Shown here: positions 28,433-31,270 of the stretch, piece after piece
Layout: every line of letters begins with the position of its first letter
Position numbering within the stretch: the stretch's first letter is position 1
Assembly: GCF_018919395.1 (NCBI RefSeq)
Contig: NZ_JAHLME010000007.1
Coordinates: forward strand, 124,001-188,000
Length of the DNA: 64,000 nucleotides
From: Geomonas azotofigens
GTDB lineage: Bacteria > Desulfobacterota > Desulfuromonadia > Geobacterales > Geobacteraceae
Direction of reading: 5' to 3'
The notes under the pieces: model-generated
The model's input: only the letters and a program-made list of their open reading frames with translations
What the model was told of the DNA's origin: nothing
Database searches by the model: none
Made by a program: the position numbers and the translations under genes

Positions 28433-29701
28433 TTACCTCATTTTCTCCAGCACCTTCGCCTTCGCCTTCGCGTATTCCTCTTCGCTCAGCGCGCCTCTAT
28501 CGAACTTGTTCTTCAGCACCTTCAACTCGTCCTCGGCACCGGGGGCGGCCGCCTTGGTCTCCCCCTTCTTCCCCCGCTCCTTGAGCCGGCTCGCCTCCCC
28601 CTTGATGTCCACGAGGTCCATCTTCAGCTCGGCGTTGCCGTACCAGTGGGTGTAGGCCGGATTCTGGTGATAGGCCCCCTTGACGGTCCGGGCGTAGTCG
28701 TACTTCTTCATCTTGAAGAAGAGCCGCTCGATGTGCGAGGTGTCCTCGTAGAGCATCTGGCTGTCGGTCACCAGGCGCGGCCCGCTCAGCGGGTGGGGCG
28801 GTCGGTTTTCCGGCATCGGGTCGAGGAGCCCCCGGTCGTTCAGGTCCCAGATGACGTGCTCCGCCTCCTTCAGGATGGCGAGGCTCTGGCCGCGCACCTG
28901 GTCGCCGCGCTCGAGCTCCCTCTTCGCGAAGGAGGGGGCGTGGCAGTCGCTGCAGATCCTGACCATGTCGGCCCGGGCCGGTTCGGCCTTGGCGGCGGGG
29001 TAGGGGACCCCTCCGGAGTTCATGGTGACGCCGATGGATACGTTGTGGGTCCCCTTGGGCATGTGACAGGTCTGGCAGTCGGGCCCGGTCTTTCTGCCGG
29101 TGCTCGCGTTCAGCGTGCCGTGCAGCGAGGTCTGCCACATCTCCCACTGCGGGTGGTCGGGACCCATGTGGCACTTGGCGCAGGAGTTGGGATCGCGCAC
29201 GATCTTCAGGTCGGTCATGTGCTTTGAGTGGCAGGAGTCGCAGGCGTCCTCGACGCTGTGACAGTAATTGCAGCCGATCTCCCCCATCTCCGGCGACTGC
29301 TTCAGGAACCGGGCGCACTGCACCTCGGAGCGCGGGATCTCGTCCCCTTTCTCGTGGCAGAACCGGCACTCTCCCTCCTTGCGGTTGGGAAGGTTCCTGG
29401 TGCAGCCCCACCCGGAGTGCAGCCCCATGCCGTGACGGCTGGCGCGGTGCTCCTGGTAAGCCTTCTGGTGGCAGGGGCCGCATACCTTCATGCCGACCTT
29501 GGCCTCGCCCTTCACGATCTTGTCGTGGTCGCTGCCGTGGCACTTCTCGCAGCCGACTCCGGCCCTGGCGTGGGCGCTTCCCTGCCATTGCGCCACCGCC
29601 GCGGGGGTCTTCTCGGCGTGACAGGGAAGGCATGGTTCGGCGGCGTGAGCGGCCAGCGGCACCAGACAGAAAAAGGCTGCGGCAAAGATCGCTTTCATCA
29701 T
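28433..29701 (-). CDS. Exported nonaheme c-type cytochrome with C-terminal SHOCT-like tail (422 aa)
   Basis: A signal peptide (residues 1-21, ending AAHAA) is followed by nine CXXCH heme motifs: CLPCH, CEKCH, CGPCH, CRFCH, CNYCH, CDSCH, CAKCH, CQTCH and CSDCH, all in the first 60% of the protein. The segments CAKCHMGPDHPQWE and CQTCHMPKGTHN resemble the hydroxylamine oxidoreductase-like multiheme superfamily. It would act in the periplasm or outside the cell; the substrate is unknown. After a Lys/Gly/Ala linker the last 33 residues match the SHOCT domain (DRGALSEEEYAKAKAKVLEK), which is rare on cytochromes. Its ATG overlaps the TGA of the lipoprotein gene (ATGATGA), with AAGGAG 8 bases before. 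Confidence 0.92.
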   Translation of the reverse strand: MMKAIFAAAFFCLVPLAAHAAEPCLPCHAEKTPAAVAQWQGSAHARAGVGCEKCHGSDHDKIVKGEAKVGMKVCGPCHQKAYQEHRASRHGMGLHSGWGCTRNLPNRKEGECRFCHEKGDEIPRSEVQCARFLKQSPEMGEIGCNYCHSVEDACDSCHSKHMTDLKIVRDPNSCAKCHMGPDHPQWEMWQTSLHGTLNASTGRKTGPDCQTCHMPKGTHNVSIGVTMNSGGVPYPAAKAEPARADMVRICSDCHAPSFAKRELERGDQVRGQSLAILKEAEHVIWDLNDRGLLDPMPENRPPHPLSGPRLVTDSQMLYEDTSHIERLFFKMKKYDYARTVKGAYHQNPAYTHWYGNAELKMDLVDIKGEASRLKERGKKGETKAAAPGAEDELKVLKNKFDRGALSEEEYAKAKAKVLEKMR

Positions 29702-30825
29702 CGCGCCGGCTCCTTCGGTTCCAGTTCCTTGCGGTACTCCTGCTCCGTGATCAGCCCCTGGCTGCGGAGCCTGCGCAGTTTGAGCACCCGCTCCAGGTCT
29801 GGGCGCAGCGCCGCCGGCGCACCGTCGTCAAGCCCGGAGACGTGGAACAGGTTCCCTCGGTAGCTCAGCACCAGCCCGGAACCGTCGGGCAGGAAGCTCC
29901 CCCTGGCGTCGGGGGGGACGGAAGCGATCTCCTTCCCCTTCCGGTACAGGTGGCCGTCCAGTAACAGGTAGGTGCCGGAAGGTGAGGCCGCCGGATTGAT
30001 GGCCGGGCTCCCCCAGGTTTCCAGCTCCTTTCCTTCCGGCAGCGACACCCTGCGGGTCGCTTCAACCCCCTGGGCGAAAACCAGGGATTCCCCGTCCGGT
30101 GTGTAAAAGACCTTCCCCGCCCCAAGCGGCACCTGCCCCACCTCGTAGCCGCCGCCGGTGTCCAGGTTGCGTACCAGCACCTTCAGGTACGGCGCGAAAA
30201 GGGGCGGATCCTTGAGCGAGGTGAAGGCGATTTCGTCCCGGTAGGGCGAGACCGCGATGTGGAGCTGGTCGTAAAGCACATCTTCGGGCAGGCTCGCCAC
30301 CTGCGGACGCAAGGTGATATCGATTATGGTGCTGTCGACCGGCGTGCTTTTGCCGTCCCACTGGAGCAGATGGGTCGCCATCTGCGAGCCGAAGCTGAAC
30401 TTGGTGATCTTGAGCACCCCGGCCAGCAGCTCATTCTCTGAGCGCCAGGCGACCGAGGTGACCTTGCCGGTGACCCTCGTTTCACCGAGCGTCTTGCCCT
30501 CCAGGTCGACGATCCGCAGCAGCGTCGCGTTCTGCACGGGAAGCACCAGCGCCACCTTCTCGCCGCCTGGGGAAAAGCTGATCGCGGTGGCCGGCCGGTC
30601 GGCAAGCCTCACCTTCCGACCCTGCTTGTCGGTGAGTTCCACCGCACCTTGCGCCACCGCCGCCACGGCTCCTTTGGTGCCGGCTTGGAACGGGGCGCCG
30701 ACGTCGGAGCGTCCGGCTGGTTTGACCTGGAACCCGGCCGGTAGCTGTGCCGGCAGCGTCGCGGCACAGCCGGCGAGGGAGAAAAGCATAACGACCGCGG
30801 ATAAAGTCAGCAGAATATTCTTCAT
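29698..30825 (-). CDS. Lipoprotein with beta-propeller-like body and SHOCT-like tail (375 aa)
   Basis: The first 18 residues form a lipoprotein signal with lipobox LAGC. The body has repeated strands typical of WD40/TolB-like propellers, for example ATAISFSPGGEKVALVLP, VTSVAWRSENELLAG and HIAVSPYRDEIAFTS. The end, LRRLRSQGLITEQEYRKEL, matches the SHOCT pattern, as does the tail of the coupled cytochrome. No function is known. The start at 30825 is fixed by AGGAGG. The shared SHOCT tails and translational coupling suggest that the two proteins work at the same site on the membrane. Confidence 0.8.
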   Translation of the reverse strand: MKNILLTLSAVVMLFSLAGCAATLPAQLPAGFQVKPAGRSDVGAPFQAGTKGAVAAVAQGAVELTDKQGRKVRLADRPATAISFSPGGEKVALVLPVQNATLLRIVDLEGKTLGETRVTGKVTSVAWRSENELLAGVLKITKFSFGSQMATHLLQWDGKSTPVDSTIIDITLRPQVASLPEDVLYDQLHIAVSPYRDEIAFTSLKDPPLFAPYLKVLVRNLDTGGGYEVGQVPLGAGKVFYTPDGESLVFAQGVEATRRVSLPEGKELETWGSPAINPAASPSGTYLLLDGHLYRKGKEIASVPPDARGSFLPDGSGLVLSYRGNLFHVSGLDDGAPAALRPDLERVLKLRRLRSQGLITEQEYRKELEPKEPAR

Positions 30826-30988
30826 GACGCCTCCTGATTTGAGCGACGCCAGTGTACTCAATTTGCCACGTCAAAACAACCTGGAACAGGGTGCCCGGAC
30901 CGAGTTGAGCCGTATACCGGATCCGCTGCTCCAGCACGCGGGTGATGTGGTAGAATCGCACCATTGTCTTTGTCTAAGGAGGATCTCG

Positions 30989-31270
30989 ATGCACGTCGCC
31001 TTGCTGCGGATGAGACTGCTGCTGCCAAGCCGCACCCTCAAGGAGAAGAGGGCCATCGTGAAGAGCGTGCTGGCGCGTGCGCGTAACCGGTTCAACGTCG
31101 CCTGTTCCGAGAGCGCCCTCAACGACCAACCCGCCGACGCCGAGCTCTGCTTCGTAACCGTCGCCCCGAGCGCCACCCGCGCCCGTCAGCTCTTGCAGGA
31201 ACTGGAGTACTGGCTGGTGTCCGAGCGGCCGGACCTGCAGATCGTGGACCTGCTGGTCGAAGAGCTGTAG
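30989..31270 (+). CDS. DUF503 family protein (93 aa)
   Basis: This small protein fits DUF503 (YlxP-like): it starts MHVALLRMRLLLPSRTLKEK, with RNRFNVACSE and a C-terminal amphipathic strand. Members are often found near rbfA/infB, but here the gene is alone. The frame is open far upstream; the ATG at 30989 is chosen because AAGGAGG lies 7 bases before it. Function is unknown. Confidence 0.9.
   Translation: MHVALLRMRLLLPSRTLKEKRAIVKSVLARARNRFNVACSESALNDQPADAELCFVTVAPSATRARQLLQELEYWLVSERPDLQIVDLLVEEL

Follow-up and report, generated by a model that had tools for sequence, protein, structure and literature searches.

The window, a 64,000-nucleotide stretch of DNA from the soil bacterium Geomonas azotofigens, carries a pair of adjacent genes encoding a propeller lipoprotein and a cytochrome that, by sequence, is a member of the hydroxylamine oxidoreductase (HAO) family and combines the eight HAO hemes with one extra heme. 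We propose that the two products form a two-component module of the cell envelope that would serve in defense against reactive nitrogen, with the C-terminal hairpins of both proteins as docking parts; in our assessment, this composite reading stands at about even chances.

The gene pair and the propeller lipoprotein

Both genes are encoded on the minus strand (Table 1). A sequence-only reading of this region had described two genes coupled by ATGATGA, for a beta-propeller-like lipoprotein and a nonaheme cytochrome, and this description holds: the overlap is present, the first product has a signal peptide with a lipobox and is modelled by AlphaFold2 as a propeller, and the second contains nine CXXCH motifs. 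With start codons chosen by script, 24 of the 28 named pairs show an overlap of 1 or 4 bases.

Table 1. Features of the lipoprotein-cytochrome pair (window positions; cytochrome residues are numbered from the second ATG)
Feature	Positions	Strand	Basis
Propeller lipoprotein gene, 375 aa	29698..30825	-	ORF
Lipoprotein signal peptide and lipobox, Cys20	30766..30825	-	sequence, alignment
WD40-like beta-propeller, residues 27-333	29827..30747	-	AlphaFold2, Foldseek, VIA-align 2
SHOCT-like C-terminal hairpin of lipoprotein, residues 343-371	29713..29799	-	profile match, AlphaFold2, conservation
ATGATGA overlap: two candidate cytochrome start codons enclose the lipoprotein stop TGA	29695..29701	-	sequence
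Nine-heme HAO-family cytochrome gene, 422 aa counted from the first ATG	28433..29701	-	ORF
Cytochrome signal peptide	29639..29698	-	sequence reading
HAO-type heme domain, residues 22-377	28568..29635	-	PF13447, PDB matches
Extra-heme module, residues 94-130, invariant Cys99 and Cys128	29309..29419	-	alignment
Extra heme site CRFCH, residues 111-115	29354..29368	-	alignment
CNYCH, residues 143-147, aligned with HAO catalytic heme 4	29258..29272	-	alignment
His351, opposite the HAO cross-linking Tyr (Tyr467) and a Tyr of hydrazine dehydrogenase	28646..28648	-	alignments
SHOCT C-terminal hairpin of cytochrome, residues 390-417	28448..28531	-	profile match, structure model

The lipoprotein model (mean pLDDT 90.6) matches WD40 propellers at Z scores of 24.6-25.8 among the PDB matches listed; no bacterial periplasmic propeller is prominent among these matches, which are general WD40 proteins. 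The residue that follows the lipobox cysteine is Ala, and Asp occupies this position in none of the 27 rows of lipoprotein set A2; Cys20 itself is kept in at least 90% of the lipoproteins of set A4. The lipid anchor seems to be missing from some of the partner lipoproteins of Nitrospirota, three of which (L096, L100 and L102) are without a canonical lipobox. A profile search found no second copy of the lipoprotein in the genome of the window.

A nine-heme branch of the HAO family

The family membership of the cytochrome and its extra heme go beyond what the sequence-only reading had noted. The HAO family profile PF13447 matches it with 74.7 bits (cut-off 21.9) and is also found in all 46 nine-heme cytochromes, and eight of its nine hemes are in the HAO register, mapping one to one. 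Its best relatives in the PDB are the anammox HAO-like proteins 6t5e and 4n4j (E-value 1.9e-37 for 4n4j) and hydrazine dehydrogenase 6hif, with Nitrosomonas europaea HAO (4fas, 8.1e-22) being more distant; the score with the NCBIfam model of hydrazine dehydrogenase, 107.8 bits, is far under the cut-off of 900. What the cytochrome has of its own, compared to the HAO family, is the extra heme with two invariant cysteines, a His at the cross-link site, the SHOCT tail and the propeller partner. An octaheme HAO paralog in the same genome (G000:C1:872373-873557) shares the family, the eight hemes and the Asp-His pair but has eight hemes only and shows no SHOCT match.

The extra heme falls between HAO hemes 3 and 4. 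No heme was found at this site in any of the 44 aligned HAO-type relatives (50 other HAO-type rows minus the broken or cut L119, L123, L125, L129, L134 and L150). Ten of these (L126, L130, L131, L135-L140 and L146) contain nine CXXCH motifs in the open frame, the ninth lying outside the aligned stretch and in no case at the extra site; the other exceptions are L116, with ten motifs, two of them far downstream, and L124, L141 and L143, with seven. Heme 4 is described as the active-site heme of HAO (PMC8840924), and the extra heme next to it is probably an added electron entry.

Alignments place His351 opposite Tyr467 of N. europaea HAO, the residue that is cross-linked to heme 4 in oxidative HAOs of the P460 type; this Tyr is thus lacking, and the His is invariant in all 46 nine-heme cytochromes, as are Asp181-His182, with the heme-4 site kept. 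The key site is reported to be a His in reductive HAOs and a Tyr in oxidative ones (PMC12758564). Because of this His at the cross-linking position, we infer a reductive HAO-type enzyme, which may act on NO, nitrite or hydroxylamine. Tyr353, initially taken for the cross-linking residue from a YGN match to anammox HAO, was rejected given the placement of His351; the anammox HAO alignment alone does not settle the matter because it is gapped there. The structure model of the cytochrome is poor except for the tail (mean pLDDT 60.4).

The nine-heme cytochromes form a single group in the whole-protein tree (46 rows, SH-aLRT 99), and this group holds when the extra-heme module and the tail are removed (98/81; 98% of 200 bootstrap trees; this core tree also omits L116 and L122). 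When the 50 other HAO-type loci (L103-L152) were searched with the lipoprotein, lipoprotein-tail and cytochrome-tail profiles, nothing was detected at E<=0.1. By sequence comparison, then, the extra heme, the tail and the propeller partner mark one clade represented in Desulfobacterota and Nitrospirota, and the pair with both tails is kept across these phyla. Neither a SHOCT-tailed cytochrome nor a nine-heme HAO was found in titles and abstract openings of the open-licence literature; this does not demonstrate that none has been described.

In the 141 genomes surveyed for the order, the lipoprotein is encoded in 31 and the cytochrome in 28, all of which also encode the lipoprotein; three genomes (G015, G008 and G016) have the lipoprotein without the cytochrome. 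The lipoprotein gene lies directly upstream in all 29 testable named nine-heme loci, including seven from Nitrospirota (L092, with only 148 upstream bases, is untestable); the two counts are not independent because some genomes occur in both. The lipoprotein has some use of its own since it persists without the cytochrome in three genomes, two of which show a body dN/dS of 0.29 between them.

SHOCT and SHOCT-like tails

Both products had been read as ending in SHOCT-like tails, and this was borne out, in different ways for the two proteins. The tail of the cytochrome (residues 391-418) scores 32.2 bits against PF09851 (SHOCT; curated cut-off 27 bits) within the whole protein and 37.1 bits as a 40-residue tail. 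The profile search suggested by that reading succeeded for the cytochrome but not for the lipoprotein, which reaches 16.9 bits (residues 349-367) and whose 34-residue tail shows no match when searched alone. The lipoprotein tail is therefore SHOCT-like, not a SHOCT member by its own score, and is clear at the family level, as judged from sequence profiles: in the wider sets (A3 for cytochromes, without the broken-frame L093, and A4 for lipoproteins, from which five and six rows, respectively, repeating named loci were removed), SHOCT was detected at E<=0.01 in 38 of 46 cytochromes and 13 of 50 lipoproteins, the best lipoprotein at 3e-06. In the whole 4.97-Mb genome, PF09851 matches four places at E<=1, the fourth lying close to the N-terminal end of a porin-like protein; the two best matches (36.1 and 20.8 bits) are the tails of these adjacent genes, so the tail pair is above chance.

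Each tail is predicted to be a pair of helices separated by a short turn, the helices being residues 344-355 and 361-368 of the lipoprotein and 388-400 and 406-420 of the cytochrome (pLDDT about 90). As in SHOCT, these are two-helix C-terminal hairpins that retain the conserved Gly and Glu and lie no more than 50 residues from the C-terminus; the difference is that here both carriers are exported and are partners in one operon. The absence of the tails from orthologous pairs would have spoken against the earlier reading; they are present in every intact ortholog read, including all 22 cytochromes of set A1 (the window's included; L027, interrupted by a run of N, is omitted) and all 27 lipoproteins of set A2. 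With the cytochrome-tail profile, the lipoprotein tail scores top among 47 lipoprotein windows and, reciprocally, the cytochrome tail scores top among 53 cytochrome windows when compared with the lipoprotein tail. Among 348 windows of the lipoprotein, the best one in the tail is 15th in conservation, and when lipoproteins that have a cytochrome are compared with one another, the tail shows the higher identity than the body in 88% of 1081 cases.

Possible roles of the tails

The paper that defined SHOCT, in which the main text is without the word "cytochrome", proposed oligomerization and nucleic-acid binding (PMC3581485). The view of SHOCT as an oligomerization-type domain, adopted in the sequence-only reading, runs against the fusion experiment reported there, which was performed with another SHOCT and gave no support for oligomerization; with both tailed partners located outside the cytoplasm, a nucleic-acid role is argued against as well. 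For the suggestion that the tails join the two proteins, the tightly kept two-gene unit, the related tails and the export of both products are favorable, but direct tail-to-tail binding is opposed by the three genomes with a tailed lipoprotein alone and by the covariation analysis. The test for tail-tail coevolution was negative: once body distances are accounted for, tail distances do not covary (partial r -0.04; p 0.70 by permutation; L099, a partial lipoprotein, was omitted), although the statistic proved unspecific. A lipoprotein stretch around residue 157 that covaried with the cytochrome tail (r 0.42) was discarded as well because each of five other cytochrome regions reached its own maximum elsewhere, at 0.24 to 0.47.

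A bolder reading, which we consider somewhat less likely than not, is that the hairpins are an extracytoplasmic clasp between the partners, fastening a nine-heme reductive HAO with an extra electron-entry heme to a lipid-anchored propeller and so making an envelope reductase for reactive nitrogen in anaerobes. In the two-component module proposed above, the least secure steps are that the propeller would hold the soluble cytochrome at the membrane and that the hairpins would dock on each other or on the body of the partner.

The missing covariation and the solitary tailed lipoproteins would fit a situation in which the tails are no link between the proteins, with each hairpin packing on its own chain or self-assembling, for example around an HAO-like trimer, with the shared tail type due to common origin or convergence. 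The lipoprotein tail is indeed modelled confidently in a single chain (pLDDT block means 90-95), and oxidative HAOs are described as trimers (PMC12758564). However, the tails are present in every intact nine-heme cytochrome and partner read and undetected by the tail profiles in the 50 other HAO-type loci, which argues that they were gained and kept together. Moreover, in G015 and G008, where the cytochrome was lost, the lipoprotein tail is less conserved than the body (0.69 vs 0.75), and a value as low occurs in only one of 13 paired comparisons matched for body identity; in this single event, the tail behaves as if it had partly lost its purpose along with the cytochrome. The lipoprotein tail remains the best SHOCT match in G016, the third cytochrome-less genome. 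On balance, we regard separate roles of the two tails as rather unlikely.

A third envelope factor that recognizes both tails, which would then be one common tag for sorting, anchoring or surface binding, appears improbable. A third exported lipoprotein of the genome (L003) has a SHOCT-like tail (15.7 bits), and SHOCT-like domains have been proposed to anchor cytoplasmic proteins to the membrane (PMC11237479, where most of the SHOCT-like domains studied are argued to be intracellular). Nevertheless, if such a tag were in general use, many exported proteins would be expected to carry it, and the genome has just the four PF09851 places. Among eight relatives, SHOCT is over the cut-off in G007 only, and the best matches in G007, G004, G016 and G024 are members of the lipoprotein-cytochrome pair; in G008 and G015, the best matches are weak and elsewhere in the genome.

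Genomic context and proposed function

In some relatives, the pair is part of a cassette. Of 30 named nine-heme loci, 10 have a ygbA gene downstream of the pair and on its strand, an arrangement seen in none of the 50 other HAO-type loci (both ygbA products that were tested match PF11756, with 74.7 and 65.8 bits); only this adjacency is informative because ygbA is present in 132 of the 141 genomes. A Crp/Fnr regulator gene (identity confirmed for the four tested) is located upstream in 11 of the 30, directly before the lipoprotein in ten and two genes off in L087. In 8 of these 11 Crp-linked loci, an exact TTGACnnnnGTCAA lies 47-50 bases before the lipoprotein start (six detected directly in a scan of 28 named regions that left out L092 and L099, and two more after moving the start codon), against a background of two copies in the 386,458 bases that make up the 50 other loci. 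The published HcpR site of Geobacter and Desulfuromonas is wyTTGACnnnnGTCAArw, cytochrome c-like genes often belong to HcpR regulons (PMC1274295), and the Salmonella NsrR regulon includes ygbA (PMC2884951). The relatives' pair thus resembles members of these regulons in adjoining ygbA and following a published HcpR-type site, a combination pointing to nitrosative-stress control. The cassette loci are not independent, being mostly in one tree branch, and the adjacent Crp/Fnr protein is a candidate HcpR at most.

The window pair differs: no ygbA or Crp gene adjoins it, and TTGACnnnnGTCAA was not found within one mismatch anywhere in the window or within two mismatches at 30600-31100. Nor is an exact copy present in the 1500 bases upstream of any of the four PF03063 genes (Hcp or CO dehydrogenase) of this genome, where one near match was seen. 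A TTGnC-type palindrome lies over the promoter of several Geomonas-type pairs and is not kept in all.

Given the regulator-lipoprotein-cytochrome-ygbA cassette in relatives, with its TTGAC-N4-GTCAA site before the lipoprotein gene, the cytochrome may serve in defense against reactive nitrogen. Nitrate respiration was rejected as the context: narG (E<=1e-100) does not track the cytochrome, being found in 14 of 28 genomes with it and 36 of 113 without, and in only 3 of 17 outside the genus of the window; the presence of NrfA-type proteins is uninformative because matches occur in 120 of 141 genomes. The narG pattern would also suit a cytochrome that relays electrons or acts on a different substrate, such as in iron or extracellular respiration, as would the variable neighbors beyond the cassette and the nature of Geomonas as ferric reducers with many c-type cytochromes (PMC6773877). 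The kept HAO-type catalytic region and the relatives with ygbA and the HcpR-type site speak against such a role, which we consider doubtful.

Implications

SHOCT is a widespread bacterial domain with an unsettled role in the literature examined, where no assigned binding partner was found; if the clasp reading is true, it gains one. A conserved operon in which both partners are tailed outside the cytoplasm is a natural system for finding the binding target of SHOCT. The cytochrome adds a well-marked branch, for which we found no published name, to a family responsible for key steps in nitrification and anammox, and this branch suggests a way in which iron-reducing anaerobes may deal with NO or hydroxylamine.

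A lipoprotein-cytochrome gene pair with SHOCT-type tails

The lipoprotein and cytochrome genes of the window overlap at ATGATGA, and nine CXXCH motifs were counted in the cytochrome, which bears out the sequence-only reading of an overlap-coupled lipoprotein and nonaheme cytochrome. The lipoprotein comprises a signal peptide with a lipobox, a WD40-like propeller (residues 27-333; structural matches with Z up to 25.8) and the tail. The neighbourhood of the pair contains no telling functional genes. A likely promoter (TTGTTT, 17 bases, TACACT; read by eye) lies 5' of the lipoprotein gene at window 30851-30879, where it is overlapped by a TTGnC palindrome that is kept only partly; the same promoter is discernible in several relatives of the genus.

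Coordinates of the gene pair in the window
Feature	Position	Strand	Basis
Two-gene unit	28433-30825	minus	sequence
Lipoprotein gene	29698-30825	minus	sequence
Cytochrome gene	28433-29701	minus	sequence

The cytochrome C-terminus matches the Pfam SHOCT domain with 32.2 bits in the whole protein and 37.1 bits as the tail alone (cut-off 27), and the lipoprotein tail scores 16.9 bits, under the cut-off. The claim of SHOCT-like tails on both proteins stands, with this difference in score. A SHOCT search of the whole 4.97-Mb genome yielded four places at E<=1, and since the top two are the adjoining tails of the pair, chance is not a reasonable explanation. Profile-profile comparison pairs the two tails with each other (P 6.4e-06), the match ranking first among 47 windows in one direction and first among 53 in the other. 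Both tails are modelled as helix-turn-helix hairpins, with helices 344-355 and 361-368 in the lipoprotein (whole-model mean pLDDT 90.6) and 388-400 and 406-420 in the cytochrome (tail pLDDT about 90; the heme part of this model is poor, mean pLDDT 60.4). Across relatives, 38 of 46 cytochromes and 13 of 50 lipoproteins have a SHOCT match at E<=0.01. The lipoprotein tail belongs to the best conserved stretches of its protein (best rank 15 of 348 windows), and the cytochrome tail to the least conserved stretches of a highly conserved one (best rank 333 of 394).

Two further SHOCT-like stretches were seen in this genome, one at the C-terminus of a third exported lipoprotein of about 150 aa (L003; C14:31013-31084; 15.7 bits, under the cut-off) and one directly after the signal peptide of a protein that appears porin-like by eye (L004; C1:556879-556920; 15 bits). 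A resemblance to the C-terminal part of GvpG, a gas vesicle protein, was also seen for the cytochrome tail (window 28448-28531), at 18.4 and 23.9 bits against a cut-off of 30.6.

A nine-heme relative of hydroxylamine oxidoreductase

The cytochrome matches Pfam Multi-haem_cyto (74.7 bits, cut-off 21.9), and in the PDB it is related to anammox HAO-like proteins, to hydrazine dehydrogenase and to Nitrosomonas europaea HAO (hydroxylamine oxidoreductase), with E from 9.2e-38 to 8.1e-22. In an alignment with 44 HAO-type relatives and the octaheme paralog of the same genome, eight of the nine hemes coincide with those of the family. The extra site, CRFCH at residues 111-115 (counted from the second of two candidate start codons), has a heme in none of these 45 rows, and Cys99 and Cys128, invariant in all 46 nine-heme rows, are absent from all 45; ten of the 44 relatives have a ninth CXXCH elsewhere, beyond the aligned stretch. 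Asp181-His182 is common to all rows. In the alignments, His351 falls on Tyr467, the cross-linking residue of N. europaea HAO, and on a Tyr in hydrazine dehydrogenase. At this key site, His is assigned to the reductive form and Tyr to the oxidative form in PMC12758564. Because His351 lies opposite that Tyr, the nine-heme cytochrome is predicted under this rule to be a reductive enzyme.

Distribution and evolution of the pair

Among 141 genomes of the order, the cytochrome (E<=1e-90) is present in 28 and the lipoprotein (E<=1e-8) in 31, including all 28. Nine-heme cytochromes with the extra site are encoded in 30 of 80 named loci, from Geomonas, Geobacter, Desulfuromonas and other Desulfuromonadales, seven Nitrospirota, and single MAGs labelled Desulfobulbaceae and Myxococcales. 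The lipoprotein gene is directly upstream in all 29 testable nine-heme loci, with an overlap of 1 or 4 bases in 24 of 28 measured pairs (start codons chosen by script); three Nitrospirota partners (L096, L100 and L102) have no canonical lipobox. All nine-heme cytochromes are intact except the frame-broken L093, and all 29 intact ones carry the tail, whose recurrence in orthologous pairs the sequence-only reading depended on. The 50 other HAO-type loci gave no lipoprotein or tail profile match at E<=0.1. In the full tree, the 46 nine-heme rows come out as a single group (SH-aLRT 99), and they do so again with the extra-heme module and tail cut out (98/81).

The three genomes with the lipoprotein alone (G008, G015 and G016; loci L066, L067 and L068) belong to the genus of the window and keep a tailed lipoprotein at the same place, followed, with no cytochrome in between, by the gene that neighbours the window's cytochrome gene; the neighbours there are presumably DUF503 and RdgC. 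These loci represent a natural deletion of the cytochrome. The body of the G015-G008 lipoprotein pair has a dN/dS of 0.29, and its tail is less alike than its body (0.69 vs 0.75), a pattern matched by only one of 13 comparable paired comparisons, which hints, for a single event, that the tail may be freed once its partner goes. In G016, the lipoprotein tail is still the genome's best SHOCT match. Tail-tail covariation was not found with a statistic that is unspecific. To call SHOCT a known oligomerisation-type domain, as the sequence-only reading did, was too strong in the word 'known', because the test construct of the SHOCT-defining paper was monomeric (PMC3581485). How the tails work we infer; the sequence finding itself, a SHOCT-tailed pair, is real.

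Possible nitrosative-stress context in relatives

In 11 of the 30 nine-heme loci, the lipoprotein gene has a gene for a Crp/Fnr-family regulator upstream, immediately adjacent in 10 and two genes away in L087. Ten of the 30 have ygbA downstream of the cytochrome gene on the same strand, and the 50 other HAO-type loci gave no ygbA match; Pfam and NCBIfam models bear out the identity of the two ygbA genes and four regulators tested. An exact TTGACnnnnGTCAA lies 47-50 bases 5' of the lipoprotein start in eight of the 11 regulator-linked loci, six directly and two (L087 and L091) after shifting the start to an inner Met. Besides the six direct sites, the 28 loci scanned contain nine copies, namely those of L087 and L091 plus seven that lie no more than about 200 bases from ygbA, and the 50 other HAO-type loci contain two copies in a total of 386,458 bases. 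Both of these last copies (L120:2778 and L121:2912) lie shortly 5' of octaheme HAO start codons in Geobacter MAGs. The relative G039 (L052) has a TTGACnnnnGTCAA copy 156 bases before the lipoprotein gene. PMC1274295 describes this pattern as the site of HcpR in Geobacter and Desulfuromonas, and places cytochrome c-like genes in HcpR regulons; the Salmonella NsrR regulon includes ygbA (PMC2884951).

Several observations, however, count against a nitrosative reading: the window has no TTGACnnnnGTCAA site within one mismatch, ygbA occurs in 132 of the 141 genomes regardless, narG is not a companion of the cytochrome (14 of 28 genomes with it, 36 of 113 without), and the cassette loci belong mostly to one branch. 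The window's genome has four PF03063 genes (hybrid cluster protein or CO dehydrogenase; C1:840332, C14:245522, C6:28179 and C11:636173), only one of them preceded by a sequence close to the HcpR-type site. Geomonas yields N2O as it reduces nitrate to ammonium, and the study that describes this holds Nar, NrfA and Hcp-Hcr responsible (PMC11633192); its accessible text mentions HAO a single time, in the legend of a figure, and never uses the words octaheme or multiheme. As a module the pair is old and tightly conserved, and we infer for it a role with nitrogen compounds.
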